Assembly: GCF_022761125.1 (NCBI RefSeq)
Contig: NZ_JAKWJR010000010.1
Span: 62,001-126,000 of the forward strand
Source: Nocardioides sp. SR21
GTDB taxonomy: Bacteria; Actinomycetota; Actinomycetes; Propionibacteriales; Nocardioidaceae
Direction: 5' to 3'
Length of the DNA: 64,000 nucleotides
Numbering within the stretch: the first letter of the stretch is position 1; the number at the start of each line of letters is the position of its first letter. The notes below the pieces were generated by a model. It worked only from the letters and a program-made list of their open reading frames with translations, was not told the origin of the DNA and made no database searches. The translations under genes and the position numbers were made by a program. Below, one piece after another: positions 38,199-62,704 of this stretch.

Positions 38199-38240
38199 AT
38201 CGTTCCGTAGGCATGGACGAAGGGCTCATCACGGGTTATC

Positions 38241-38254
38241 GTTTGGATGCGAAC
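38241..38254. promoter_or_regulatory. Regulon operator site 1 (GTTTGG-AT-GCGAAC)
   Basis: A 14-bp imperfect inverted repeat 24 bp before the ATG of the VanB-type reductase, flanked as TC...GA. It is one of seven copies of GTTTGG-NN-CCRAAC in the window, all in promoters of catabolic genes. Confidence 0.6.
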
Positions 38255-38278
38255 GACTACCGAGCGAGTGGGACACCG

Positions 38279-39256
38279 ATGACGCAGAGCGCAGCACCCC
38301 TGATGAGCGAGTTCGAGGCCGACGCCGTGGTCGCAGCAGCCGAGACCGTCGCCGACGACGTGGTCCTGCTGACCCTCCGGCCCGCCGACCAGGCGCACCT
38401 GCCGGCCTGGACGCCCGGCGCCCACCTCGACCTGATCCTCGGCGACGGCTCCGGCGAGGTCGTGCGGCAGTACTCCCTCTGCGGCAGCCCCGCGACCCGC
38501 GACAGCTACCAGGTCGCCGTACTGCGGACGCCCGACAGCCGCGGTGGCTCCGAGGCCGTGCACCGCCTCGCCGAGGGCGACCGGCTGCGGATCCGCGGCC
38601 CGCGCAACCACTTCCCGCTCGTCAGCAGCCCGCGCTACGTCTTCGTGGCCGGCGGCATCGGCATCACCCCGATGATCCCGATGATCGAGGAGGCCGACGC
38701 CGCGGGCGCCGACTGGGTCCTCCACTACGGCGGCCGCTCGTCGGACTCGATGGCGTTCCGCGAGCTCCTCACCAAGTACGGCGACCGCGTGCACCTCGTG
38801 CCGCAGGACCAGACCGGTCTGCTCGACCTCGAGGCCGTGCTCGGGACGCCTGCGCCCCAGACGCTCGTCTACTGCTGCGGGCCCGAGCCGCTGCTGCGCG
38901 CGGTCGAGGAGCGCTGCCACGCCTGGCCCTCGAACTCGCTGCACCTGGAGCGCTTCACGCCGAAGGAGCGCGCCGACGACGGCGACGACGCGGCGTTCGA
39001 GGTCGTGCTGCAGCGCTCGGGCCTCACGATCCAGGTGCCGCCCGGCACGTCGGTGTTCGACTCGATGCGCGACGCAGGCGTCAGCGTCCTCGGCTCCTGC
39101 CTCGAGGGCATCTGCGGGACCTGCGAGCAGACCGTGCTCGAGGGCGACGTCGACCACCGCGACTCCGTGCTCGACGAGGACGAGCAGGCGTCGAACGAGT
39201 GCATGATGGTGTGCGTCTCGCGGGCGCGCGGCCCGCGCCTGGTGCTGGACGCCTGA
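38279..39256 (+). CDS. VanB-type reductase (FMN/NAD plus [2Fe-2S] ferredoxin)
   Basis: A 325-residue single-component electron-transfer protein of the phthalate-dioxygenase-reductase class. The flavin-binding RQYS is at 63-66, the nicotinamide site GGIGITP at 125-131, and a C-terminal plant-type ferredoxin has Cys274, Cys279, Cys282 and Cys312, all present. It passes electrons from NAD(P)H to an oxygenase. The ATG at 38279 follows GTGGGAC. It precedes the Rieske-like gene by 9 bp. Because that protein's cluster site is damaged, the reductase may instead or also serve the P450 in the same putative regulon. Confidence 0.92.
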   Translation: MTQSAAPLMSEFEADAVVAAAETVADDVVLLTLRPADQAHLPAWTPGAHLDLILGDGSGEVVRQYSLCGSPATRDSYQVAVLRTPDSRGGSEAVHRLAEGDRLRIRGPRNHFPLVSSPRYVFVAGGIGITPMIPMIEEADAAGADWVLHYGGRSSDSMAFRELLTKYGDRVHLVPQDQTGLLDLEAVLGTPAPQTLVYCCGPEPLLRAVEERCHAWPSNSLHLERFTPKERADDGDDAAFEVVLQRSGLTIQVPPGTSVFDSMRDAGVSVLGSCLEGICGTCEQTVLEGDVDHRDSVLDEDEQASNECMMVCVSRARGPRLVLDA

Positions 39257-39265
39257 GGAGGAGCG

Positions 39266-40285
39266 ATGAGCATCCCTCGCAACGCCTGGTACCCGATCGC
39301 CGCCTCCGAGGAGGTCGGCCGCGCACCGATCGCGCGCCGCGTCCTCGACGTACCCGTCGTCCTCTACCGCACCACCTCCGGCGAGCCGGTCGCGCTCGAG
39401 GACCGGTGCGCCCACCGGCCGGTGCGGCTCAGCGACGGCGTGCTCGAGGGCGACCTGATCCGCTCGACGTACACCGGCTTCACCTACGACCCCGCCGGCC
39501 GCTGCGTCTCGGTGCCCACGCAGGACCATGTGCCGTACGGCGCCGCCGTGCGCTGCTTCCCGGTGCAGGACGACGGCAGCTTCGTCTGGGTGTGGGCCGG
39601 CGAGACCGGTCTCGCCGCGCTGCGCACGCCGCCGGACACCGCGCTGCTGCGCGACGCCGGGTGGACGACGTTCGGCGGATCGCTGGACACCGCGGCCGGG
39701 ATCGGGCTGCTGCTCGACAACTTCTGCGACATCACCCACGTCGCCCAGCTCGACCAGGACATCGCGCCGCCGGCGCTGACCGCCGGCCCGACCCCGCCGC
39801 TCGAGGTCGAGGTCAGCGAGACGACCGTGCGGTTCTGGCGCCGCTTCGACGCGTCGCCGCTCGCGCCCTGGAACGCCCAGGTGCTCGAGCTCCCCGAGGA
39901 CGCCGAGCACGAGCAGGTCGAGGAGGGCGAGTTCGTCGGCCCCGGCTACTGGGTCGACCGCTGGACGGTCGAGGTCAAGGGCCACGACGACCGCGACGGC
40001 CAGCACGTCTTCGTGTTCAGCCACGCGCTGACGCCCCTGTCGGCCACTCGCACCCGCCACATCTGGCGGGTCAGCCGGAACTTCGCCAGCAGCGCCGCGG
40101 CCGACGGCACCCTCACCCCGCTCTTCGAGGCCTACTACGCCCGCGTCGGCGAGGTGCTGGAGCAGATGCAGAGCATCCTCGACGAGGAGGGCCCGCGCCC
40201 CGAGGTCGCCGTCGCCGCCGACGCCGCCGTCAGCCACGTACGCCGGATCGTGCAGCGGATGGTCGCCGACGAGCTCGGCGGCTGA
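39266..40285 (+). CDS. VanA-like Rieske oxygenase homologue with degenerate metal sites
   Basis: A 339-residue homologue of vanillate demethylase/dicamba-monooxygenase alpha subunits. The N-terminal Rieske domain keeps the first ligand pair (Cys48-A-His50) but the second, normally C-x-Y-H-G, reads STYTG, so Cys is Ser67 and His is Thr70. In the catalytic domain DNFCDITHVAQLD has His158, but Asp163 stands where the family has the second iron His. It is not truncated and codon use is normal. It may have lost Rieske chemistry or use another metal arrangement. It is paired with a VanB reductase 9 bp upstream. Confidence 0.85.
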   Translation: MSIPRNAWYPIAASEEVGRAPIARRVLDVPVVLYRTTSGEPVALEDRCAHRPVRLSDGVLEGDLIRSTYTGFTYDPAGRCVSVPTQDHVPYGAAVRCFPVQDDGSFVWVWAGETGLAALRTPPDTALLRDAGWTTFGGSLDTAAGIGLLLDNFCDITHVAQLDQDIAPPALTAGPTPPLEVEVSETTVRFWRRFDASPLAPWNAQVLELPEDAEHEQVEEGEFVGPGYWVDRWTVEVKGHDDRDGQHVFVFSHALTPLSATRTRHIWRVSRNFASSAAADGTLTPLFEAYYARVGEVLEQMQSILDEEGPRPEVAVAADAAVSHVRRIVQRMVADELGG

Positions 40286-40756: not shown

Positions 40757-41695
40757 TCAGCCGGCGATCGCCTCGGCCCGGCGCATCACGTCGCGCAGGA
40801 ACGCCGGGAGCTCGTCGACCGAGTCGATGAACTGCGACGGCTTCACGCAGAACGTCGTGAACCCCTGCTCGAGCTGCTCCGCGATCGGCGCCATCGCGGC
40901 GCCGAGGTCGGCGACGGAGTCGTCGTCAGCGAACGTCGCGCGGGTGCCGCCGACCATCTCGATCTCGCCGGGGTCACGGCCGGCGTCGAGCAGGCCGCTG
41001 CGCAGCATCGCGAGGTCGTCGGGCGTCGGCGTGCCGAACGGGTGGAAGCCGTGGCCGTAGCGGACCAGCCGCTCCAGCACCGGTCCGTGCACGTGCTGCC
41101 CACCGAACCACAGCCGCGGCCCTTCCGGGCGGAACGCCTTCGGCTCCAGGTAGACGTCGGTGAAGTCGAAGAACTCGCCGTGGAAGCTGGCCGGGCTCTC
41201 CCGCCACACCAGGTCCAGCACGGCGAGCTGCTCGTCGAGGATCCGGCCGCGCTTGCCGAACGGCACCCCGAGCGCGGCGTACTCGTCGCGGCTCCAGCTG
41301 ACACCGGGCTGTACGACGAGCCGCCCCTGCGACAGCAGGTCGAGGGTGCCGAGCTCGCGGGCGAGCAGCAGCGGGTGCCGCAACGGCGCCAACACGGCAC
41401 TGGCGACGAGCCGAAGTCGCGACGTCGCGGACGCGATCGCGCTCAACAGCAGCAACGAGCTCGGCCACGGCGTCGCGGGGTCCTGGTTCCCAGGAGCGGC
41501 GTACGCCCGCGGGTTGGTCATGATCCCGTGCGCGCCGGCGTCCGGGCCGAGTACGACGTGCTCGCTCAGCATCACCGAGTCGAACCCGGCGTCCTCGGCC
41601 TCGCGCGACCACCGCACCAGCTCCGGGAGGTCCCGCCCCGAAGCCAGCGTCCAGTTCTCACTGAGGATCAGCAGCATCCTCGGGGCGGCGGCCAT
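40757..41695 (-). CDS. LLM-class F420-dependent (luciferase-like) oxidoreductase
   Basis: A 312-residue TIM-barrel protein of the bacterial luciferase-like/F420 family. MLLILSENWTLASGRDLPELVRWSREAEDAGFDSVMLSEHVV opens the barrel, and ARELGTLDLLSQGRLVVQPGVSWSRDEYAALG is the family core. The cofactor is F420 or FMN. It is the third gene of the glutamine-synthetase-like/P450/LLM operon, its ATG sharing one base with the P450 stop. It probably oxidises or reduces an intermediate of that pathway. Confidence 0.9.
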   Translation of the reverse strand: MAAAPRMLLILSENWTLASGRDLPELVRWSREAEDAGFDSVMLSEHVVLGPDAGAHGIMTNPRAYAAPGNQDPATPWPSSLLLLSAIASATSRLRLVASAVLAPLRHPLLLARELGTLDLLSQGRLVVQPGVSWSRDEYAALGVPFGKRGRILDEQLAVLDLVWRESPASFHGEFFDFTDVYLEPKAFRPEGPRLWFGGQHVHGPVLERLVRYGHGFHPFGTPTPDDLAMLRSGLLDAGRDPGEIEMVGGTRATFADDDSVADLGAAMAPIAEQLEQGFTTFCVKPSQFIDSVDELPAFLRDVMRRAEAIAG

Positions 41696-42983: not shown

Positions 42984-44336
42984 TCAGATGTGGTACGTGT
43001 ACTCGTGGAACTCCCAGTCGGTGATCCACGTCCGGAACCGCTCGACCTCGTCGCGCTTGTAGGCGAGGAAGGCGTTGACCAGCGGCTCGCCCAGCAGGTC
43101 GGCGAGCTCCTTGTCCTGCTCGAGGGCGTCGAGTGCCTCGGAGAGCGACTGGGGCAGCTTCTCCGACTTGGTGTCGTCGTACCCGTAGCCGACCAGCGGC
43201 TCGGGCGGCTCGATCTTGTTGCGGATGCCGAGCAGCGCGGCGGCGAGCATCGAGGCGACCGCGAGGTAGGAGTTCGCGCTCGCGTCGCCGAGGCGCAGCT
43301 CGAGGCGGGTGCCGGAGCCGCGCTCCGGGGGGATGCGGACCATCGCGCTGCGGTTGTCGAGGCCCCAGTCGATCAGCCACGGCGCGAGGGTGTCGGGCCC
43401 GAACCGCTTGTAGGAGTTGATGGTCGGGTTCGACAGCGCCGCGATCGCCGGGGCGTGCGCGAGGATGCCGCCGATCGCGTGCCGCGCCAGCGGCGAGAGG
43501 CCGTGCGGGTCGGACGGGTCGTGGAACAGCGGGGTGCCGTCGGCGTCCGCGATCGAGAAGTGCAGGTGGTAGCCCGAGCCGCCCTCGTCGTTGAACGGCT
43601 TCGGCATGAACGTCGCGAGCTGGCCGCGGCGGCGGGCGAGCTCCTTGATCGCGTCCTTGAAGCGGTGCGCGCGGTCGGCGGCGTCGAGCGCCTCGCTGTG
43701 CCAGAGATTGATCTCGAACTGGCCGGAGGAGAACTCGTGGTTGGCGGAGATGACGTCGATGCCGTAGTTGCCGAGCTGGCGCAGCGCGTCGAGGAGCACG
43801 TTCTCGGGGTCGCCCTTGAGCCCGGACGTGTAGACGTTGCCGGTGCCCTCGCCGTAGCGCTTCCAGCCGGACGGCGACTCCTTGCTCTCCTCGAGCACGT
43901 AGAACTCGAGCTCCGGGCCGACGACCGGCGTCAGTCCCAGCTCGGTGAACTGCTCGCAGATCTGGCGCAGCACGTAGCGCGGGCTCTCCTGCGACGGCGT
44001 GCCGTCGGGGTTGAAGACGTCGGCGATGCAGTGCGCGACGCCCGGCTCCCACGGCACCGGCAGCAGCGTGTCGAGGTCCGGGAAGGCCTGGACGTCGGGG
44101 AGGCCGGCCGACAGCCCGCCCTCGAAGTCGACGACGCCACCGCGCGGCGTCGTACCGAACACGGAGCGGCAGAACGCCACGCCGCTGCCCACGGTCCGCG
44201 AGAAGCGGTTGACCAGGACGTCGCGGCCGCGGTCCACCCCGATGAGGTCGGCGTAGCCGAGCCGGACGACGTCGATCCCCTGCTCGGTGAGGCGGTCCTG
44301 AGCGGGCTGGAGACCGGAGGTGTCGAAGTGGGTCAC
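42984..44336 (-). CDS. Glutamine-synthetase-like gamma-glutamyl ligase (GlnA3/GlnA4/PuuA type)
   Basis: A 450-residue member of the glutamine synthetase family. Metal and substrate motifs are seen in GPELEFYVLEE, ANHEFSSGQFEIN, PFNDEGGSGYHLHFSI, NPTINSYKRF and IPPERGSGTRLELRLGDASANSYLA. The adenylylation-site motif of housekeeping GlnA is missing, which fits catabolic ligases that join glutamate to amines. The GTG at 44336 follows GGAAGGAA. It is the first gene of the GS-P450-LLM operon. A P450 next to a GS-like gene is also known from mycobacterial cyclic-amine (morpholine/piperidine) clusters, from memory. The amine is not known. Confidence 0.88.
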   Translation of the reverse strand: MTHFDTSGLQPAQDRLTEQGIDVVRLGYADLIGVDRGRDVLVNRFSRTVGSGVAFCRSVFGTTPRGGVVDFEGGLSAGLPDVQAFPDLDTLLPVPWEPGVAHCIADVFNPDGTPSQESPRYVLRQICEQFTELGLTPVVGPELEFYVLEESKESPSGWKRYGEGTGNVYTSGLKGDPENVLLDALRQLGNYGIDVISANHEFSSGQFEINLWHSEALDAADRAHRFKDAIKELARRRGQLATFMPKPFNDEGGSGYHLHFSIADADGTPLFHDPSDPHGLSPLARHAIGGILAHAPAIAALSNPTINSYKRFGPDTLAPWLIDWGLDNRSAMVRIPPERGSGTRLELRLGDASANSYLAVASMLAAALLGIRNKIEPPEPLVGYGYDDTKSEKLPQSLSEALDALEQDKELADLLGEPLVNAFLAYKRDEVERFRTWITDWEFHEYTYHI

Positions 44337-44354
44337 GGCCGTTCCTTCCAAGTC

Positions 44355-44368
44355 GTTTGGATCCGAAC
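44355..44368. promoter_or_regulatory. Regulon operator site 2 (GTTTGG-AT-CCGAAC)
   Basis: A nearly perfect inverted repeat 18 bp upstream of the glutamine-synthetase-like gene's GTG (minus strand). Flanked by TC on the left as at site 1. Confidence 0.7.
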
Positions 44369-44425
44369 AGTAACGCGGTGTGGCCGGGAGCACAAGGCTT
44401 CCCAAGCCGGTCGGTTCGCCGTATC

Positions 44426-44439
44426 GTACGGACCCAAAC
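44426..44439. promoter_or_regulatory. Regulon operator site 3 (GTACGG-AC-CCAAAC)
   Basis: A copy of the element 19 bp before the acetoacetate-decarboxylase-like ATG (plus strand), flanked TC...GA. With site 2 it brackets the divergent promoter, one site per direction. Confidence 0.7.
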
Positions 44440-44458
44440 GACACAAGGAGAGCAGCAG

Positions 44459-45271
44459 ATGCGCGAGATGAACGGCTTCCTCTACCCGCGGACGGCGTCC
44501 GGGGTCTCGTCGCTGATCCCGTCGCCGCCCTGGTACTACTCCGGGGATCTGCTCACCGTCGAGTACCGCACCGACCCGGCCAACGTCGAGGCGCTGCTGC
44601 CGGCGCCGCTCGAGCTCGCGCCGGAGGACCCGGGCGCGGTCGCGCTGATCTGGGCGGACTGGCAGTCGTGCTCCGGCTCGCGCGAGCAGCTGCTCGACCC
44701 GGTGCGGTCGCAGTACAAGGAGGCGTTCGTCGTGGTGCGCTGCTCCTTCGAGGGCACGACGTACTCCCGGTGCGTCTTCATCTGGGTCGACAAGGACTTC
44801 GCGATCGCGCGCGGCCTGCACCAGGGCTACCCGAAGAAGCTCGGCTCGATGTGGCAGACCCGCCCGCACCCGTTCGCGCACGCCGCTCCGCAGATCGGCC
44901 CCGGCGGCGTCTTCGGCGCGACGCTCGCAGCGTCCGACCGGCGGCTGGCCGAGGCCGTGGTGACCCTGCGCGAGGAGTCGGACACCAACGGCTTCGTCAA
45001 CGGCCACCCGATGGCGCACCACCGGGTCTTCCCCGACATCGCCGGCGACGGCGACGCGTACGCCGAGCTGATCTCGTCGGGCGCCAGCTCGTTCGAGGGC
45101 GGCCAGTCCTGGAAGGGCGACGCCGAGCTGCGGCTGTTCGAGGCGCCGACCGAGGAGCTCGCGCGGCTCGAGGTCGAGGAGGTCATCGGCGGCTACTACC
45201 GGCAGGTCGGCGTCGAGTGGAACGGCGGCAGCACGCTGGCACGCCTCACTCCCGGGACTCTGACCAGCTAG
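44459..45271 (+). CDS. Acetoacetate-decarboxylase-family protein
   Basis: A 270-residue ADC-fold protein. PPWYYSGDLLTVEYRTDP opens it, and the Schiff-base lysine region reads GLHQGYPKKLGSM, matching the PKK motif of the family. Members include true decarboxylases and aldolase/dehydratase-like enzymes, so decarboxylation of a beta-keto acid is only the default guess. The ATG at 44459 follows AAGGAGAG. It is divergent from the glutamine-synthetase-like operon and followed by a MarR gene after 17 bp. Confidence 0.88.
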   Translation: MREMNGFLYPRTASGVSSLIPSPPWYYSGDLLTVEYRTDPANVEALLPAPLELAPEDPGAVALIWADWQSCSGSREQLLDPVRSQYKEAFVVVRCSFEGTTYSRCVFIWVDKDFAIARGLHQGYPKKLGSMWQTRPHPFAHAAPQIGPGGVFGATLAASDRRLAEAVVTLREESDTNGFVNGHPMAHHRVFPDIAGDGDAYAELISSGASSFEGGQSWKGDAELRLFEAPTEELARLEVEEVIGGYYRQVGVEWNGGSTLARLTPGTLTS

Positions 45272-45288
45272 CCAATAGAGTTTCGGTC

Positions 45289-45786
45289 ATGCCAGACCGT
45301 CACACGCTCGCCGAGACCGAGCAGGCCACGCGCGAACGGGTCCAGCACCTCCCGCTCGACTTCGCCGCGTCGCACGCGCTGCTCAGCCTCTACCGGGCCG
45401 CGAACGCCGTCCGAGGCCACCTCACCAACAACGTGCTGCGGCCCCACGACCTCACGTGGACGGGCTTCCTCGTGCTGTGGACGCTCTGGATCTGGGACTC
45501 GATGGAGACCCGCGACATCGCGGAGTCCGTCGGCATCAGCAAGGGCACGCTCACCGGCGTCGCCAAGACCCTGGCGTCGCGCGAGCTCATCGAGCGGATC
45601 CCCAGCACCGCCGACCGGCGCCTGGTGAACCTCAAGCTCAGCCCCGCGGGCGTGGAGCTGATGGAGGAGATCTACCCCGAGTTCAACAAGACCGAGTCGC
45701 GCATCGTCGGCGACCTCGACGCCCGCGAGCTCGACACGATGACCTCCGCCCTGCGCACCCTGGTGGAGACCTCCGAGCAGTCCTGA
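45289..45786 (+). CDS. MarR-family transcriptional regulator
   Basis: A 165-residue MarR protein with the HTH METRDIAESVGISKGTLTGVAKTLASRELI and wing ERIPSTADRRLVNLKLSPAGVELM. It is co-transcribed with the decarboxylase-like gene under operator site 3. HpaR, the known repressor of homoprotocatechuate genes in enterobacteria, is also a MarR protein, which makes this the leading candidate to bind the GTTTGG-NN-CCRAAC sites (inference). No strong ribosome-binding site precedes the ATG. Confidence 0.9.
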   Translation: MPDRHTLAETEQATRERVQHLPLDFAASHALLSLYRAANAVRGHLTNNVLRPHDLTWTGFLVLWTLWIWDSMETRDIAESVGISKGTLTGVAKTLASRELIERIPSTADRRLVNLKLSPAGVELMEEIYPEFNKTESRIVGDLDARELDTMTSALRTLVETSEQS

Positions 45787-45912: not shown

Positions 45913-47784
45913 CTACCCGCCCAGGCGCTCGGTCAACGCGCAGCAGCACAACCCCTCGGCCAGGCAGGACGCCGACGTGTGGCTGCTGATCGAGCTCACG
46001 GCGGCCGCGCCGGCCCGCGCGCGACCCGCGCCGGACGCGGCGCCGTCGTACACGACCTCGCCGTTGACCAGCGTCGCTGCCACGCTCAGCCCGACGAGCT
46101 CACGCGGCGGCGTCCGCATCACGTCGCCGTCGAGCACGGTGATGTCGGCGACCTTGCCGACCTCCAGCGTGCCCTTCCACGCGGCCGAGTGGTCCTGCCA
46201 CGCCGGGGTCCGGGTGTACGTCGCCAGCGCCTCGCGGACCGAGATCCGCTCGGCCTCGCCCGCGACACCGCCGAACATGCCCTCGCGCAGCCGCATCGCC
46301 ATCACGCCCTGGAGCCAGGACGGGAACGTGACCGGCGCGTCCGACGAGCTCGAGACCCGGACGCCGGCGTCGAGCGCCGAGCGGTACGGCCACTGGTAGT
46401 CGGTGCGCTCCGGGCCGAGGACCGGGTCGAGCGTGCGGCCGAGCAGGTACTTGATCGTGCCGTTCATGTTCACGCCGATGTCGTTGCGCGCCATCTTCCG
46501 CAGCGTGGCCGGCGGCGTGAGGTCGCCGTGGATCACGTAGTGGCGCAGGTCGGCGCGCTTCCGGCTGTTGCGCATCGCGGCCAGGTAGCCCGCGACGACG
46601 GCGTCGATGGTCGCGTCGCCGGTGGCGTGCGTCCCGATCTGGAAGCCCTTCCGGTTCGCGAGCCGGATCATCCGGTGCAGCGTCGCGACCTGCTCCTCGA
46701 CGCTGGTGCCGTCGATCACGAGCGAGCCGTTGGTGCCGTCGAGGTAGGGCTCGTGCAGCCACGCGGTCTGCGCCGCGGTCGGGATGCCGTCGGCGAAGAT
46801 CTTCACGCCGGCGACCCGGAGGTAGCGGGCGTCCACGCCGCTGAGCGGCTCGTACGAGTCGATGGCGGCCTGCATCGAGGCGACGCTGGTGCCGCCCGAC
46901 AGCAGCGCGTTCACCCGCAGCGGCAGCTTCCCGGCGCCCACCTTGGCGGCGTACAGCTCGAGGGTCGCGGCACCGATCCCCGGGTCCGTGACGCTGGTGA
47001 TGCCCTGCGCGTGCAGCATCGCGATGCTGACGTCGAGCCCGCGCGAGATCTGGTCGGGCGAGAACGGCGGCACGACCGACTGCACGAGTCCCTGCGCGGT
47101 CTCGCGCAGCACGCCCGTCGGGTCGCCGTTGCTGTCGCGCTCGATGACGCCGCCGACCGGCGGCTGGGTGTCGCGGGTGATGCCGGCGAGCTCGAGCGCC
47201 TTGGTGTTGACCGCGATCGCGTGGAACGAGAAGTCCGTCAGCAGCACCGGGTGGTCGCCCGACACCGCGTCCAGGTCGTGGCGGTCCGGCGGCCGCGGCA
47301 GCCGGTTGTCGTTCCAACCCTGCCCGCGGATCCACTCGGTCGGCGTCGCCGCCTGCTCGGCGGCGCCCCTCACGATCGCGACCAGCGCGTCGATGGTGCC
47401 GGTGTCGACGTTGTACGACAGCGGCGGCAGCGTCAGCGCGAACCCGCTCAGGTGCAGGTGCGAGTCGTTGATGCCCGGCAGCACCGTGCCGCCTGCGGCG
47501 TCCACGACCTCGGTACGCCGCCCCGCCAGCCGCTTGATCTCCCGCGTGCTGCCGACGGCGACGATCCTGCCGTTGCGCACGGCCAGCGCCTGGGCGGTCC
47601 CGGACCTGGCGTCCATCTGCTGCACCGCGCCGTTGAGCACGACCAGGTCCGGGGCGGGCGTGCCCGCGCCGCGTCCGGCTCCGGTCACGGCCGCGGCCGA
47701 CGAGCCGGCGGCGGCCACGGCGCCCGCGGCCCCGGCCGCCGCAGCGCCGGCCAGCAGGCTGCGCCGAGTGACTTCGTTGTCCAT
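45913..47784 (-). CDS. Exported YtcJ-like amidohydrolase
   Basis: A 623-residue metal-dependent amidohydrolase of the YtcJ/amidohydrolase-3 family. The N-terminus has a Tat-type signal (TRRSLLAGAAAAGAAGAVAAAG), so it is probably exported folded. Metal-binding motifs are NDSHLHLSG, KIFADG (lysine position), GTHATGD, YVIHGD and SSSSDAPV. The domain ends near residue 585, and a tail of about 40 residues rich in Ala, Ser and Cys (CLAEGLCCCALTERLGG) follows, which is not usual. An operator site lies 60 bp upstream and it is divergent from an AraC gene. It may hydrolyse an amide outside the cell. Confidence 0.9.
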   Translation of the reverse strand: MDNEVTRRSLLAGAAAAGAAGAVAAAGSSAAAVTGAGRGAGTPAPDLVVLNGAVQQMDARSGTAQALAVRNGRIVAVGSTREIKRLAGRRTEVVDAAGGTVLPGINDSHLHLSGFALTLPPLSYNVDTGTIDALVAIVRGAAEQAATPTEWIRGQGWNDNRLPRPPDRHDLDAVSGDHPVLLTDFSFHAIAVNTKALELAGITRDTQPPVGGVIERDSNGDPTGVLRETAQGLVQSVVPPFSPDQISRGLDVSIAMLHAQGITSVTDPGIGAATLELYAAKVGAGKLPLRVNALLSGGTSVASMQAAIDSYEPLSGVDARYLRVAGVKIFADGIPTAAQTAWLHEPYLDGTNGSLVIDGTSVEEQVATLHRMIRLANRKGFQIGTHATGDATIDAVVAGYLAAMRNSRKRADLRHYVIHGDLTPPATLRKMARNDIGVNMNGTIKYLLGRTLDPVLGPERTDYQWPYRSALDAGVRVSSSSDAPVTFPSWLQGVMAMRLREGMFGGVAGEAERISVREALATYTRTPAWQDHSAAWKGTLEVGKVADITVLDGDVMRTPPRELVGLSVAATLVNGEVVYDGAASGAGRARAGAAAVSSISSHTSASCLAEGLCCCALTERLGG

Positions 47785-57136: not shown

Positions 57137-57862
57137 CTACCGACGCCCGGCCGCCACCACAGCGCTGAACACCGCGAGCTGCTGCGGATCAGTCGCCCAG
57201 GTGTCCTCGGGGTGCCACTGCACGCCGAGGAACCAGCCCGGCGCCTGCGGGATCTCGACGCCCTCGATGACACCCTCCTCGGAGCGCGCGACGACGTGCA
57301 TGCCCTCGCCGAGCGAGGCGAGGCACTGGTGGTGGTAGCAGGAGGACTCGATCTTGTCGCCGACCACCGAGGACAGCAGCGAGCCCTCGTCGACCGCGAT
57401 CGCGTGGACGCGGTGGCGGTGGTGGCGCATCTCGCCGTACGTCTCGTCCATGTCCTGCACGACCGTGCCGCCGCGCGCCGCGTTGACGACCTGGAGGCCG
57501 CGGCAGACCGCGAGCAGCGGGATGCCCCGGGCGAGGCAGACCCGGGCGACGGCGAGGTCGAAGGCGTCCTGCTCGTCGTCGACGTCATAGAGGGTGGCGT
57601 GGGCCTCCTGGCCGCTCCAGTGCGCGGCGAGGTCGCCGCCGCCGGGGAGCAGGACGCCGTCCGCGACCTCGAGCCGCGACGCGACCTCAGCGTCGTCAGC
57701 AATACCGGCGGGTGCATGGGGGTGGATCACCAGCGGCTCTCCCCCGGCGGCCCACACGGCCTCGACCAGGTTGCGCGAGGTCACCTCCGCGCCGGACCGC
57801 AGCGCCGAGGCGCTGGTCGAGAAGCGTGCGGGGATCGCGATGCGCGGGCGGCGCTCACCCAT
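57137..57862 (-). CDS. Class I glutamine-amidotransferase-like hydrolase, PuuD-like (peptidase C26)
   Basis: A 241-residue member of the gamma-glutamyl hydrolase/PuuD group. The nucleophile is the Cys in LAVCRGLQVVN, and the His/Glu pair is in GVQWHPEDT. PuuD cleaves gamma-glutamyl-GABA to free the carboxylic acid. It is the last gene of the HPC-type operon, overlapping the aldehyde dehydrogenase by 8 nt. Together with the GS-like ligase under the same operator type, a gamma-glutamylated route is likely (inference). Confidence 0.88.
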   Translation of the reverse strand: MGERRPRIAIPARFSTSASALRSGAEVTSRNLVEAVWAAGGEPLVIHPHAPAGIADDAEVASRLEVADGVLLPGGGDLAAHWSGQEAHATLYDVDDEQDAFDLAVARVCLARGIPLLAVCRGLQVVNAARGGTVVQDMDETYGEMRHHRHRVHAIAVDEGSLLSSVVGDKIESSCYHHQCLASLGEGMHVVARSEEGVIEGVEIPQAPGWFLGVQWHPEDTWATDPQQLAVFSAVVAAGRR

Positions 57863-59351
57863 AGTGGATCCACGTCGTCTTCAGGTCGGTGTACTCGTCC
57901 AGCGCGTGCCGCGACTTGTCGCGACCGAAGCCGGAGAGCTTCACGCCGCCGAACGGCACGCTGAGGTCGCCCTCCTCGTAGCAGTTCACCCAGACCGTGC
58001 CGGCCTTGAGCTTGCGCGAGACGCGGTGCGCCGTACCGAGGTCGGAGGTCCACACCGCGGCGGCCAGGCCGTACGGCGTGTCGCCCGCGACCCGGACCGC
58101 CTCGTCCTCGTCGCCGACCTCGAGCACCGAGAGCACGGGAGCGAACAGCTCCTCGCGGACCAGCAGGTTGTCGGGCGCGAGGCCGGTGACGACGGTCGGC
58201 TCGAGGTAGGGGCCTCCGCTCTCCGATCGCGTACGCCGGCCGCCGACGCGGACCTGCCCGCCGGCCGCGACACCTTCGTCGAGCTGGCCGAGGATCCGCT
58301 CCAGGGAGCGCTCGTCCACGACCGGGCCCATCTTGGTGGCGGGGTCGAGCGGGTCCCCGGGCGCCCACTGCGCCGACGTCTCGACGATGCGCGAGACGAC
58401 CTGCTCGGCGACGTCGCGGTGCACGACCAGGCGCGAGCCCGCCGTGCACATCTCGCCCGAGTTGAAGAAGATCGCCCAGGCGGCGGTGTCCGCGGCGGCG
58501 TCGAGGTCGGGGGCGTCGGGAAGGATGATGTTCGGCGACTTCCCGCCGAGCTCGAGGTAGACCCGCTTGAGGTTGCTGTCCGCGGAGTACCGCAGGAAGT
58601 GCCGGCCGACGGCGGTCGATCCCGTGAACGTCAGGATGTCGACGTCGTGGTGCTCCCCCAGCGCGCGACCGACGACGACGCCGTCTCCGCTCAGCACGTT
58701 GAGGACGCCCGGTGGGAGCCCGGCCTCGAGCCCGAGCTCGGCCACCCGCTGCATCGACAGCGGTGACTGCTCGGCGGTCTTGAGCACGACGGTGCAGCCG
58801 GCGGCGAGCGCCGGGCCGATCTTCCAACCGGCCAGGGTCAGCGGGAAGTTCCACGGCACCACGGCCGCGACGACTCCGGCGGGCTCGCGGGTGACCAGCG
58901 AGAGGTCCCCGTCGGTGGTCGGCGTGATCTCGCCGTGCTCCTTGTCGGCGAGCTCGCCGTAGTAGCGCAGCGTCCGGACCAGCGCGCGCAGCTCGATCTC
59001 GTGAGCGATCCGGATCGGCTTGCCCATCTCGAGGCTGATCAGCAGCGCGAGCTCGTCGCGGTGCCGGTCGACCAGGGCAGCGAACGCCTGCAGGATCTCG
59101 CCGCGCTCGCGCGGGTGCAGCCGCGGCCACGGGCCGTGGTCGAACGCGCGCCGCGCCTCCGCGACCGCCCGGTCGGCGTCGGCCGCGTCCGCCCACGCGA
59201 GGTCACCCAGGGTCGAGCCGTCCCGCGGCGTGACGATGGACCGCGCGGAAGCCGCCTCGCGGAACTCGCCACCGACGAAGACCCCGCCCGGCACGGACAG
59301 CTCAGCGGCCCGAGCGGCCCAGTCGGTCGTCCCGACGTGATCGGTGGTCAT
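57855..59351 (-). CDS. NAD-dependent aldehyde dehydrogenase (PuuC-like)
   Basis: A 498-residue ALDH-superfamily enzyme. VVPWNFPLTLAGWKIGPALAAGCTVVLKTAEQSPLS opens the NAD domain, LELGGKSPN carries the general-base Glu, and the nucleophile is the Cys in NSGEMCTAGSR. PuuC-type enzymes oxidise gamma-glutamyl-aminoaldehydes or other aldehydes to acids. Its ATG shares one base with the FAH stop, and its 3' end overlaps the PuuD-like gene by 8 nt, which supports joint action. Confidence 0.92.
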   Translation of the reverse strand: MTTDHVGTTDWAARAAELSVPGGVFVGGEFREAASARSIVTPRDGSTLGDLAWADAADADRAVAEARRAFDHGPWPRLHPRERGEILQAFAALVDRHRDELALLISLEMGKPIRIAHEIELRALVRTLRYYGELADKEHGEITPTTDGDLSLVTREPAGVVAAVVPWNFPLTLAGWKIGPALAAGCTVVLKTAEQSPLSMQRVAELGLEAGLPPGVLNVLSGDGVVVGRALGEHHDVDILTFTGSTAVGRHFLRYSADSNLKRVYLELGGKSPNIILPDAPDLDAAADTAAWAIFFNSGEMCTAGSRLVVHRDVAEQVVSRIVETSAQWAPGDPLDPATKMGPVVDERSLERILGQLDEGVAAGGQVRVGGRRTRSESGGPYLEPTVVTGLAPDNLLVREELFAPVLSVLEVGDEDEAVRVAGDTPYGLAAAVWTSDLGTAHRVSRKLKAGTVWVNCYEEGDLSVPFGGVKLSGFGRDKSRHALDEYTDLKTTWIHYG

Positions 59352-60211
59352 CAGTGCGCCGCGGGCTTCGGCTTGCGGATGCCGCGGAACTCCCAGTCGC
59401 CACCCTGGGCGGTCGACAGGACCTCCTCGGACTCGGTCACCTGGGCGCCGACGTCGGTGCGGATCGGCGTCGGGCCGGACACGATGTGGTTGCGCAGCGT
59501 GCCGAGGCCCTCGACCTCCACCTCGACGACGTCGCCGGGATAGACGGTGCGCGAGATGGCCGGCGTACCGGACAGCAGCAGGTCGCCGGGCTGCAGCGTG
59601 ATCGTGCGCGCGATGTCCGCGACGAGGTAGTGCATGTCCCACTCCATCTCGTCGGTGTTGCCGTCCTGCTTCACCTCCCCGTTCACCCGGGTCTGGATGC
59701 CCTTGCCGCGGAAGTCCCAGCCCTCGATGACGCCGGGGCCGACCGGGCACAGCGTGTCCGCGCCCTTCACCCGCAGCATCGAGCCGGAGTCGGTGTCGCG
59801 GAAGTCGTGCAGGCCGTAGTCGTTCGCGACCGTGAAGCCGCGGATGTAGTCACCCGCCTCGGCCGGCGAGATGTTGCGCGCCGTGCGCCCGATGACGATC
59901 GCGATCTCGCCCTCGTAGTTGAGCCACTTGCAGCCCTCGGGCCGCACGACCGCGGCGTCGTGGGAGTTCAGCGCCGAGACCGGCTTGTGGAAATACGTCG
60001 GTGCCGGCGGCAGCGTCGTCTGCATCTCGCGCACCCGGCTGATGTAGTTCAGGTGCACGCACACGATCTTCGACGGGGTGACCGGCGGCAGGTGGCGGGC
60101 CTCGGCGATCGCCACCTCGCGGCCGTCGCCGGCGACCAGGGACTCGCCGTGGCGTACGACGTCGACGGGGTTGCCGTCGAGCAGGATGCGGCGCGTCTCG
60201 CGCAGGGTCAT
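59351..60211 (-). CDS. Fumarylacetoacetate-hydrolase-family protein (HpaG-like)
   Basis: A 286-residue FAH-fold enzyme. CVHLNYISRVREMQTTLPPAPTYFHKPVSALNSHD is the substrate loop; the metal-binding acidic residues are in NYEGEIAIVIG and in RGFTVANDYGLHDFRD; GTPAISRTVYPGDVVEVEVEGLG follows. In the homoprotocatechuate route, FAH proteins act as the 2-hydroxyhepta-2,4-diene-1,7-dioate isomerase/decarboxylase (HpaG). Position between the extradiol dioxygenase and an ALDH fits that. Confidence 0.88.
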   Translation of the reverse strand: MTLRETRRILLDGNPVDVVRHGESLVAGDGREVAIAEARHLPPVTPSKIVCVHLNYISRVREMQTTLPPAPTYFHKPVSALNSHDAAVVRPEGCKWLNYEGEIAIVIGRTARNISPAEAGDYIRGFTVANDYGLHDFRDTDSGSMLRVKGADTLCPVGPGVIEGWDFRGKGIQTRVNGEVKQDGNTDEMEWDMHYLVADIARTITLQPGDLLLSGTPAISRTVYPGDVVEVEVEGLGTLRNHIVSGPTPIRTDVGAQVTESEEVLSTAQGGDWEFRGIRKPKPAAH

Positions 60212-60232: not shown

Positions 60233-61192
60233 TCAGCCGGCAGCCGGTACGTCGGCGCCGGGTGCGCCCATCTGGCGCACGTAGTCGGGGTCGGTCGGGG
60301 TCTCGTTCGCGGGCGGGAAGCCACCCTCGGGGCGGTCGAACCACAGGTGCACCTGGCCGGTGCCGATCGAGTTCTCGTACTCGCCGTACTGGCGGGCCGG
60401 CGCGGTGCAGCTCTCCTCGCCGAGGGCGCCGATCATCATCAGGTAGTGCATGAACTTGGCCTCCGGTCGGTAGCGGAGGAACTCGGGCATCGTGTCGAGG
60501 ACCCGCTTGTGGTCGCCGGACTTGAACCACTCGATGCGCTCGAGGTCGGCCTGCAGGGCCCCCGATGAGAAGATGTGCTCGTGGCCGGCGGCCTCGTGGT
60601 CGCGCAGCTGGCGCAGCGACCAGAACGTGTGCGACAGCGCGCCGGACGCGATCAGCAGCACCTTGCGGTCCGACTCGGCGATCGCCTCGCCGAGGGCACG
60701 GCCGAGGCGGAGGCTGTCCTCGCCGTCGGCGGTCTGGCAGACCCCGATGGAGATCCACTTCTTGTCGGGCAGGCCGGCGCCGAGGAACTCCCAGAGGTTC
60801 GTGGTCGCGTAGAAGATCGGCAGCGAGTGGTCGTCGATCGCGGTGATCCACGTCGAGTGCTTCGCGGCCTTGCTCGCGATGAGGTGCGCGAGCTCGGGGT
60901 CACCCGGGAAGTCGTACGGACGCCGCTGCATGCCGCGCGGCAGCTCCTCGGAGGTGAACAGCCCGCTGCGCCGGTCCTGCGCGGTGACGACGTACTCGAC
61001 CGTGGTCGCCCAGTGGGAGTCGAGGACGACGACGGTGTCGTAGTCGAGGGTGTCGAAGACCTCGCGGCGCAGCTGGTGCAGCCCCGAGACGAGCGTGGAG
61101 TCCTCACCGTTGTTGAGCTCGCGCCGGATCTCCTCCGACAGCACGATCGTCGGGACGTGCGCCAGCAGCCCGGCGCCCACCACCTCACCCAT
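60233..61192 (-). CDS. hpaD: Class III extradiol dioxygenase, 3,4-dihydroxyphenylacetate 2,3-dioxygenase-like (HpaD)
   Basis: A 319-residue LigB-superfamily ring-cleaving enzyme. GLLAHVPTIVLSEE and VVLDSHWATTVEYVVTAQDRRSG carry the iron-binding His residues, GALSHTFW includes a further conserved His, and the length fits HpaD/HpcB. It would open homoprotocatechuate (3,4-dihydroxyphenylacetate) to 5-carboxymethyl-2-hydroxymuconate semialdehyde. It lies 3 bp after the HpaE-like gene. Other catechol-type substrates remain possible. Confidence 0.87.
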   Translation of the reverse strand: MGEVVGAGLLAHVPTIVLSEEIRRELNNGEDSTLVSGLHQLRREVFDTLDYDTVVVLDSHWATTVEYVVTAQDRRSGLFTSEELPRGMQRRPYDFPGDPELAHLIASKAAKHSTWITAIDDHSLPIFYATTNLWEFLGAGLPDKKWISIGVCQTADGEDSLRLGRALGEAIAESDRKVLLIASGALSHTFWSLRQLRDHEAAGHEHIFSSGALQADLERIEWFKSGDHKRVLDTMPEFLRYRPEAKFMHYLMMIGALGEESCTAPARQYGEYENSIGTGQVHLWFDRPEGGFPPANETPTDPDYVRQMGAPGADVPAAG

Positions 61193-61195
61193 GAC

Positions 61196-62683
61196 TCACT
61201 CCTTCCAGCCGGTCGGGCTGAAGACGCTGTTCTTGATGTCGGTGTAGAAGTCGAACGACCAGATGCCGCCCTCGCGGCCGATGCCGGAGCGGCCGTTGCC
61301 GCCGAACGGTGCCTCGAGGTCGCGGACGAAGAAGCAGTTCACCCAGACCGTGCCCGCGTTGAGCTGGGCCGAGACCCGCTCGGCCGCGGCGCGGTCGCTG
61401 GTGACCAGGGTGGCCGCCAGCCCGAAGCGGGTGTCGTTGGCCCTGTGGACCGCCTCGTCCTCGGTGTCGAAGGACTCGATGGTCACGACCGGGCCGAAGA
61501 CCTCCTCGGTCATGATCTCGGCGTCCGGCTTGGCGTCGACCAGGATCGTCGGGCGGAAGTAGAGGCCGCCGAGCTCGTCGTTGGGACCACCACCGAGCAG
61601 GGGCCGAGCGCCGTCGGAGATCGCACGCTCCACGAACCCGCTGATCTGCTCGAAGTGGCGGCGCGAGATCAGGGCGGAGACGTCCGTCCCGTCCTCGCGC
61701 GGGTCGCCCTGGCGCAGCTCGGCCGCCCCCGCGACGACCCGCTCGGTGAACTCGTCGACGAGCGATGAGTGCACGAGCATCCGGGCCGCCTTGAGGCAGA
61801 CCTGCCCGGCGTTGTCGAACTGCTCGACCGCGATCTCGACGGCGAGGTCGAGGTCGGCGTCCTCCAGGACCACGAGGGGCGACTTGCCGCCGAGCTCGTA
61901 CGACAGCGGCACGATGTTCTCGGCCGCTGCCTTGGAGATGACGCCGGCGGTCGGCACCGAGCCGGTGAACGCCAGCCGGTTGATGCCGGGGTGCGCGGTC
62001 AGCGGAGCGCCCGCCTCGAGGCCGGTGCCCTGGACGACGTTGAAGACGCCGGCCGGTACGCCGGCCTCGTGCATGATGTCGGCCAGCAGGCTCGCGGTGA
62101 GCGGCGCCCACTCCGGCGGCTTCACGACGACGGTGTTGCCGGCGGCCAGCGCCGGGCCGATCCGCCAGGTGGCGAGCATCAGCGGCGCGTTCCAGGGCGT
62201 GATGATCGCGACGACGCCGGCGGGGTCGTAGCTGATCCGCTCGCGGTGACCGCGGCCCGGCACCTCCATGTCGGGGTGGCCGAGCTGCTGCTCGGCGAAG
62301 TCGGCGAACGCGCGGAAGTTCATGGCCACCCGCGGCATCACGCCGCGGCGGTGGCTGCGGATCAGCGAGCCGTTGTCGCGGGTCTCGACGCGGGCGAGGT
62401 CCTCGACCCGCGCCTCGATGCCCTCGGCGACGCGGCGCAGGATGGCGGACCGCTCGGCGACCGGCAGCGCGGCCCACGCCGGGAAGGCGGCACGGGCCGC
62501 GGCGACGGCGGCGTCCACCTCGGCGGCACCACCGGCGGCGACCTGGGCGATCTCGGACTCGTCGATGGGCGAGACGTCCGCGAAGGTCCGCTCGGAGGCG
62601 ACCCGCTCGCCGCCGATCCAGTGCCGGAGATCGACGGTGACGCCCTCGACCGTCGCCGTGAATGGGGCGGTGTGTGCCTGCAT
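61196..62683 (-). CDS. hpaE: 5-carboxymethyl-2-hydroxymuconate-semialdehyde dehydrogenase (HpaE-like)
   Basis: A 495-residue ALDH. ITPWNAPLMLATWRIGPALAAGNTVVVKPPEWAPL, SYELGGKSPLVVLED (base Glu) and NAGQVCLKAARMLVH (nucleophile Cys) are intact. The type and its place before the extradiol dioxygenase indicate oxidation of the ring-cleavage semialdehyde. ATG 62683 follows GGAGGG; a longer start is possible but covers an operator. It is the first gene of the five-gene operon HpaE-HpaD-FAH-ALDH-PuuD-like, under operator site 5. Confidence 0.88.
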   Translation of the reverse strand: MQAHTAPFTATVEGVTVDLRHWIGGERVASERTFADVSPIDESEIAQVAAGGAAEVDAAVAAARAAFPAWAALPVAERSAILRRVAEGIEARVEDLARVETRDNGSLIRSHRRGVMPRVAMNFRAFADFAEQQLGHPDMEVPGRGHRERISYDPAGVVAIITPWNAPLMLATWRIGPALAAGNTVVVKPPEWAPLTASLLADIMHEAGVPAGVFNVVQGTGLEAGAPLTAHPGINRLAFTGSVPTAGVISKAAAENIVPLSYELGGKSPLVVLEDADLDLAVEIAVEQFDNAGQVCLKAARMLVHSSLVDEFTERVVAGAAELRQGDPREDGTDVSALISRRHFEQISGFVERAISDGARPLLGGGPNDELGGLYFRPTILVDAKPDAEIMTEEVFGPVVTIESFDTEDEAVHRANDTRFGLAATLVTSDRAAAERVSAQLNAGTVWVNCFFVRDLEAPFGGNGRSGIGREGGIWSFDFYTDIKNSVFSPTGWKE

Positions 62684-62704
62684 GAACCCTCCGTGGCCGA
62701 GATC

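Follow-up and report, generated by a model that had tools for sequence, protein, structure and literature searches.

A Rieske oxygenase-like protein with broken metal sites, kept beside a VanB-type reductase and a cytochrome P450 in actinobacteria

The 64,000-nucleotide stretch of Nocardioides sp. SR21 DNA analysed here (the window) encodes, directly downstream of a VanB-type reductase, a Rieske oxygenase homologue, P0001, in which several of the residues expected to hold the metals are replaced. What is the function of such a protein, and is it a protein at work at all? The P0001 frame is free of internal stops, and its G+C content at the three codon positions (0.73/0.50/0.98) is typical of a real gene here, so that the initial annotation was right in describing it as open, of full length and normal in codon use. 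Both domains of a VanA-type oxygenase are found above the Pfam cut-offs, the Rieske domain (PF00355) with 55.6 bits and the VanA_C domain (PF19112) with 89.6 bits. The initial annotation had also proposed a structure model; the one built with AlphaFold2 from an alignment of 49 window and locus sequences (mean pLDDT 94.2, pTM 0.90) predicts with confidence an intact Rieske oxygenase fold. The best solved match of the model is dicamba monooxygenase (DMO, 3gb4; Z 38.3, rmsd 2.0, 332 aligned positions), on which Foldseek agrees. Judged by the model, P0001 is a complete VanA/DMO oxygenase fold and no fragment.

The metal sites are altered in more places than had been noticed. The first pair of Rieske ligands, Cys48 and His50, is kept within a CAHR motif, as stated in the initial annotation, and the phmmer alignment of P0001 with DMO, which has no gaps across the Rieske motif, places Ser and Thr of STYTG on Cys and His of the second pair, again in agreement with the earlier reading. 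The Rieske ligand positions are thus C48, H50, S67, and T70, with two of the four ligands lost and the 2Cys-2His set broken. In the iron site, DNFCDITHVAQLD retains Asn152, Asp155, and His158, with Asp163 at the position of the second iron His. The initial annotation had counted one lost iron ligand; its call on Asp163 is borne out by the alignment of homologues, while the number is too low, as a second loss, Val294, had been missed. Val294 aligns with Asp of ordinary VanA-like homologues, in a column that we take to be that of DMO Asp294, counting along the phmmer alignment. Of the 2-His-1-carboxylate triad, only His158 is therefore left. The observation is real and had been understated. His50 and Asp155 are invariant in the alignment of homologues (A5), and Asp155 is presumably the Asp bridging the two metal sites in known structures. 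By its defining features, as read from the sequence, P0001 is not a working Rieske oxygenase, and it descends from such enzymes with the fold kept.

Table 1. Features of the window around P0001 (positions are those of the window)
Feature	Coordinates	Strand	Basis or remark
VanB-type reductase (FAD, NAD, plant-type [2Fe-2S])	38213..39256	+	9 bp upstream of P0001; putative reductase of the P450
Rieske-oxygenase-fold pseudoenzyme P0001	39266..40285	+	339 aa; domains, alignment, predicted fold
First Rieske ligand pair Cys48-Ala-His50, kept (CAHR)	39407..39415	+	translation, homologue alignment
Second Rieske ligand pair lost, Ser67...Thr70 for Cys...His	39464..39475	+	translation, DMO and homologue alignments
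Asp155 and iron His158 kept, Asp163 for second iron His	39728..39754	+	translation, alignment
Val294 in place of iron-ligand Asp	40145..40147	+	homologue alignment
LLM-class F420-dependent oxidoreductase (TIGR03619)	40757..41644	-	profile matches, shared loci
Cytochrome P450	41695..42909	-	nearest solved structures: ancestral CYP125, CYP124/CYP125
Glutamine-synthetase-like enzyme, putative gamma-glutamyl-amine ligase	42984..44444	-	profile/structure matches
Acetoacetate-decarboxylase-like enzyme	44459..45271	+	profile matches, shared loci
MarR-family regulator	45280..45786	+	profile matches, shared loci
Gamma-glutamyl hydrolase-like (PuuD-like amidotransferase fold)	57137..57862	-	profile matches, shared loci
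PuuC-like aldehyde dehydrogenase	57855..59321	-	profile matches; close copies in only some clusters
Fumarylacetoacetate-hydrolase-fold, HpaG-like	59351..60211	-	profile matches, shared loci
HpaD-like extradiol ring-cleavage dioxygenase	60233..61192	-	profile matches; below HpaD equivalog cut-off
HpaE/hydroxymuconate-semialdehyde-dehydrogenase-like	61196..62686	-	profile matches, shared loci

The nearest homologues of P0001 found are 67% identical to it and are likewise without the ligands; the genome searches made returned no homologue of about 95% identity with intact ligands. In the 341 genomes of the family, searched with a four-row profile and with the best six candidates per genome scored, 31 places had E values of 4.5e-125 or lower, followed by a gap down to the ordinary VanA-like proteins at 6.3e-68. 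Clade A, to which P0001 belongs, is present in 20 of the 341 genomes, and clade B makes up 11 places, in nine further genomes and two genomes also carrying clade A. A protein-sequence scan of genome contigs gave no match; a profile scan run afterwards over the genomes of 84,980 species gave 31 loci, all of them recorded as actinobacterial save L083 and L086 (uncultured bacterium). Clade A is spread over at least nine named actinobacterial families. Its 38 distinct proteins (51 rows minus 13 with an identity of 98.5% or more to another row) comprise none with the canonical Rieske set and none with the full iron triad, and no stops occur within the rows read. The loss of ligands in P0001 is not a local error, since its clade A relatives are altered too. 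That the sequence was misread or misassembled, or that one gene alone is damaged, is in fact practically out of the question: the clade refutes it, as changes of this kind occur in dozens of separate assemblies. As to whether the STYTG and D163 changes are common to a clade, a point raised in the initial annotation, the loss of ligands is clade-wide, while the particular set of replacements varies by sub-clade.

The Rieske sets of the 38 proteins are DHSS (17), CHCC (8, one of them a fragment without the last iron position), CHAT (6), CHST (3), CHSS (2), CHCS (1), and CHDH (1), and the iron sites are mostly H/D/V or Q/A/V, with H/D/V in all 17 DHSS proteins. Such a pattern may be read as a rebuilding of the old metal sites for another metal or another chemistry: Asp, His, and two Ser of the DHSS group could act as a metal site or a hydrolase-like triad, and three Cys with one His of the CHCC group, a residue set that we take to be mitoNEET-like, might still hold a [2Fe-2S] cluster. 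The invariance of His50 and Asp155 speaks for this explanation, as does the fixation of replacements within sub-clades (DHSS in 17/38, always with H/D/V, and CHCC in 8/38). It is nevertheless unlikely, since a single new catalytic function is expected to fix one residue set, and the sets differ between sub-clades with the same gene cluster; moreover, CHST of P0001 and CHAT of its nearest relative have no plausible metal set in common.

The retention of the gene was approached by dN/dS in 14 locus pairs, 12 of which had the Rieske-like gene. In eight clade-A pairs of at least 80% identity its dN/dS is 0.085-0.300 (0.195 or lower in seven of them), similar to that of VanB (0.11-0.20 in seven usable close pairs) and higher than that of the P450 in 5 of the 7 pairs having both. 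The more distant clade-A pairs gave 0.42 (L079-L081) and 0.41 (L080-L058), with 0.40 and 0.42 for VanB. Two pairs including P0001 gave 0.53 and 0.71 (VanB 0.52 in both), values read with dS underestimated at this G+C content; a relaxed constraint in the P0001 lineage is possible. The VanB pair L070-L064 and the misaligned GS pair L076-L068 (7% identity) were excluded; in the GS pair L079-L081 (48%), the two genes may be paralogous. With open frames and the ratios of the eight close pairs, clade A does not have the features of degrading pseudogenes, and the codon comparisons indicate that its Rieske-like gene is under purifying selection. The changed function suggested in the initial annotation is thereby well supported, the altered sites defining a conserved clade under such selection.

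The rate of evolution is less specific as to the partner. After removal of the background, the distances of the Rieske-like gene correlate with those of VanB (0.78), P450 (0.74), GS (0.33), and C26 (0.19), and most strongly with those of the MarR gene (0.82), so that the correlation does not single out VanB or the P450. The Rieske-like gene evolves faster than VanB (ratio 1.52) and the P450 (1.70), and at the rate of the MarR gene. The mean site identity in clade A is 0.61 for the Rieske domain vs 0.55 for the catalytic domain, and in five ordinary VanA-like proteins the Rieske domain is ahead too (0.58 vs 0.47); the slightly higher conservation of the Rieske domain fits docking of VanB, but is small.

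More is told by the neighbours. The VanB of the window looks intact, as the initial annotation had it, with FAD, NAD, and Fer2 domains and the flavin, NAD, and Cys4 motifs; among 18 VanBs, one (L078) is without the NAD motif pattern. The P450 gene lies 1.4 kb downstream of P0001, on the opposite strand in the window and many relatives. VanB is directly beside the Rieske-like gene in all 35 stretches read, and a P450 is present in 31 of them, being absent from L057, L059, L070, and L083 (the L083 stretch spans 3 kb). When the count was tightened to 42 loci with longer flanks, VanB was found within 300 bp in 42/42, compared with 15/23 ordinary VanA-like controls, and a P450 within 5 kb in 37/42 (absent from L066, L070, L074, L082, and L093) vs 1/23 controls. 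The loci being mutually related, the Fisher value of this count is not a true probability, and the P450 queries were drawn from the cases, which favours the cases; still, the search detected case P450s of 31-36% identity and a control P450 of 29%. Left out because of short contigs or a repeat were nine clade-A loci of the 84,980-genome scan, L057, L059, L060, L063, L067, L075, L080, L083, and L086; no P450 is present in the stretches of L057, L059, and L083, and one is in the other six. P0001 thus belongs to the proposed clade of P450-associated pseudoenzymes by its position in the tree, the adjacent VanB, and a P450 within 5 kb. In the CHCC sub-clade (L034, L051, L078, L079, L081, L083, L084, L086, and others), where the second Rieske His is replaced by Cys, the order P450-VanB-pseudo-Rieske in a row is seen where the flanks allow. 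At one locus a second VanB-like gene (L176:16570-18678) lies beside a second P450.

In clade B the two neighbours are joined: in 10/11 loci, and also in L175, a single frame immediately ahead of the Rieske homologue encodes both P450 and VanB. The fused P450 at L023:7479-9965 is CYP153-like (named match 3rwl, CYP153A7; top match 5fyf, which we take to be a CYP153A), and the other fusions, at L088-L092, L094-L097, and L175, are 82-97% identical to it over the P450 part. L093/L138 (G182) has a clade-B homologue and VanB without the fused P450. In L171 and L172, P450, VanB, and the Rieske homologue are separate genes in a row, and in L173 the order is VanB-Rieske homologue-P450; clade B and L171-L173 have few other genes of the window cluster beside P450 and VanB. 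Since the type of the P450 and the arrangement vary between loci, the constant companions of the Rieske-like gene are VanB and some P450. The VanB tree does not unite clades A and B exclusively and its deep forks are weak, so that VanB sequence alone is no proof of a single ancestral P450-VanB event.

A window-type P450 is present in 25 of the 341 family genomes, an HpaD-like dioxygenase in 25, and both in 24. All 20 clade-A genomes have the P450, in G263 and G150 on different contigs. In five of the 25 P450 genomes (G019, G065, G225, G254, and G313) the P450 cluster occurs without a Rieske-like gene: tblastn at E 1e-3 found no Rieske-like relative in their 20-kb stretches, and no clade A member was among all candidates scored in G019 or among the best six scored per genome in the other four. 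VanB and the P450 are no more than about 350 bp apart in G019, G065, and G225 and 3.6 kb apart in G313; in the G254 stretch no VanB was found. The VanBs of these four genomes nest inside those of clade A, next to that of the window (99/97). Most simply, there would have been two or more losses of the Rieske-like gene with VanB and P450 retained, the inner forks of the tree being weak; instead of losses, the gene may have been regained in the window lineage. A strict need for the Rieske-like protein is rejected by these five genomes. The persistence of VanB with the P450 indicates that the P450 is what VanB serves, the Rieske-like protein being probably helpful and not essential. Together with the clade-B fusion, the four genomes with VanB near the P450 argue for VanB as the electron donor of the P450. 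The pairing with VanB claimed in the initial annotation thus holds for gene order, and as a functional pairing gives way to this better explanation. The fusion loci and the clusters lacking the gene are ready-made comparison systems.

Could P0001 then be a disappearing remnant that only its operon linkage or translational coupling has preserved so far? The absence of the gene from five relatives of the window's cluster and the long branch of P0001 in the tree would agree with that. It is very improbable in view of purifying selection resembling that on VanB in close clade-A pairs, the lack of stops in the rows read, the confident and intact predicted fold, and the distribution over at least nine named families.

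The genes around P0001 form a putative catabolic cluster (Table 1), to which other loci add a GATase and an APC permease. By analogy with the 1-naphthylamine pathway, it would degrade an amine, aromatic or not, through its gamma-glutamyl derivative, the P450 acting as oxygenase; none of the HpaD/E/G-like proteins reaches its equivalog cut-off, so that their scores do not name the substrate. In the aniline and 1-naphthylamine pathways, GATase-like and Rieske dioxygenase genes come after the GS-like ligase. The window shares the GS-like ligase with such gamma-glutamylation pathways and differs from them in having a dead Rieske protein and a P450. The GS-like ligase of these two pathways acts before the aromatic oxidation to a catechol-type product (PMC11335346). 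The position of the Rieske-like gene within the cluster, along with the conservation of the catalytic domain, which is close to that of the Rieske domain, would suit a binding or carrier protein whose old active-site pocket accommodates the substrate of the pathway or the gamma-glutamyl derivative of that substrate, as a sensor, buffer, or allosteric effector acting apart from VanB and the P450. This role is decidedly doubtful, as the constant partners are VanB and a P450, and not one substrate (clade B, L171-L173).

Several further genes accompany the cluster. An amidohydrolase with an RR-containing N-terminus, which could be a Tat signal, is encoded between the cluster halves (window 45913-47784), and an FAD monooxygenase with a C-terminus like a cytochrome b5 domain (HPGG by eye) lies beside the cluster at L026:4989-6773. 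In L074 and L082 the pseudo-Rieske gene stands beside a more distant GS/GATase/C26/P450 set (31-55% identity), perhaps following the same logic with another substrate.

P0001 is very unlikely to be the oxygenase of the cluster, since residues needed to bind a normal Rieske cluster and the catalytic iron are missing from it. We hold, with slightly more confidence than doubt, that it is a retained Rieske oxygenase pseudoenzyme, a helper of the VanB-fed P450 system. Weighing against this are the five P450 genomes that do without the gene, its fast evolution, the high ratios of the two P0001 pairs, the opposite strand of the P450 in the window and many relatives, the five loci with no P450 within 5 kb, and canonical L156. 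The ancestral operon would have encoded a Rieske oxygenase together with a P450 and a VanB-type reductase; VanB would then have come to donate electrons to the P450, and the Rieske protein would have lost its metal sites stepwise without leaving the operon, this order of events being a conjecture. P0001 might bind VanB by the ancestral docking surface, as a trimer, and perhaps the P450 too, and might act as a scaffold, or else slow down or stimulate the flow of electrons to the P450. Rather more tentatively, and with the balance of our judgement against it at present, the trio may represent a distinct bacterial P450 system of a P450, a VanB-type reductase, and a metal-free Rieske oxygenase trimer as docking hub or regulator of electron flow, which would have arisen when the P450 and a Rieske oxygenase had one reductase in common and the latter repeatedly lost its catalysis, though not its place.

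Relatives outside clade A show how such a state could have been reached. Searches at the class and order levels covered 394 and 391 genomes, drawn from larger groups, with the best five candidates per genome scored. The 17 rows read comprise six of clade A (all altered, some repeating loci of the 84,980-genome scan), one of clade B, three of the same lineage, and seven ordinary VanA-like ones, six of these with CHCH and H/H/D and L169 with H/Y/D. The three lineage rows have CHCH with D/H/D (L154), CHSH with D/H/D (L155), and CHCH with H/H/D (L156), the last being the sole canonical lineage member found. L173, a second G612 locus, has CHCH with Y/Y/D, and all ten clade-B rows examined keep CHCH, with Asn for the first iron His. 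A midpoint-rooted tree of 37 selected proteins sets the 28 members of the lineage, as a single group (100/100), off from the nine VanA-like proteins of the ordinary type; clade A, with P0001 inside, is supported at 100/99, and L156 groups with L173 (93/86) beside clade B. Most simply, the lineage would have begun as a working Rieske oxygenase whose sites were lost several times and in different ways. The graded series, from canonical L156 through altered iron sites (NHD, DHD, YYD) to the loss of both metal sites, makes it directly testable how an oxygenase turns into a helper, and whether a dead one can serve as partner of a P450. This canonical member is situated at L174:9286-10332 (G674), in a gene row VanB-Rieske-SDR-P450.

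P0001 resembles the VanA and DMO (DdmC) Rieske oxygenases in its whole fold, the Rieske and VanA_C domains, the VanB neighbour, the bridging Asp, and one iron His, and differs from them in that the C-x-H...C-x2-H and 2-His-1-carboxylate sets are both broken. The loci differ as well: VanB is upstream of P0001 and downstream in most ordinary VanA-like loci read (L135 is an exception), and a P450 is usually near P0001-type genes, unlike in ordinary VanA-like loci. In P450-PFOR proteins of the CYP116B type, a P450 is likewise driven by a module of the VanB/phthalate dioxygenase reductase type, clade B being a natural fusion of this kind; full-length chains such as 6laa, presumably a CYP116B, match both its P450 and VanB parts. 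Here, in contrast to P450-PFOR, a Rieske-fold protein follows directly, and the reductase of clade A is a separate protein. A redox enzyme that acts without its metal as a helper protein is known from the P450-derived glycosyltransferase activators of the DesVIII/EryCII type, with which P0001 shares this concept, the fold and partner being unrelated; TIGR04515 gave a weak P450 match in the window and nothing more.

Division of the metal sites between two chains occurs in the chlorophyllide a oxygenase of Micromonas. In P0001 both sites are broken and no second Rieske protein was seen in the window's cluster, unlike in that enzyme, where two chains form one active unit. It is characterized as a two-chain Rieske oxygenase system (PMC9615114). 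A search of the window's own genome at E 0.001 gave two weak P0001 paralogues elsewhere and nothing more. A partner oxygenase in a heteromer was rejected, as no second Rieske protein is among the genes listed around P0001.

Helpers that are pseudoenzymes, and fusions of a P450 to a VanB-type reductase, are of kinds known already. The titles and opening parts of abstracts listed from the open-licence literature gave no description of Rieske oxygenase pseudoenzymes tied to P450s, and the meeting of a pseudoenzyme helper, a P450, and VanB in one conserved trio appears to be new. A clade-B example is publicly annotated as "aromatic ring-hydroxylating dioxygenase subunit alpha", and P0001 itself passes the Pfam cut-offs, so that pathway predictions made from such names can be wrong.
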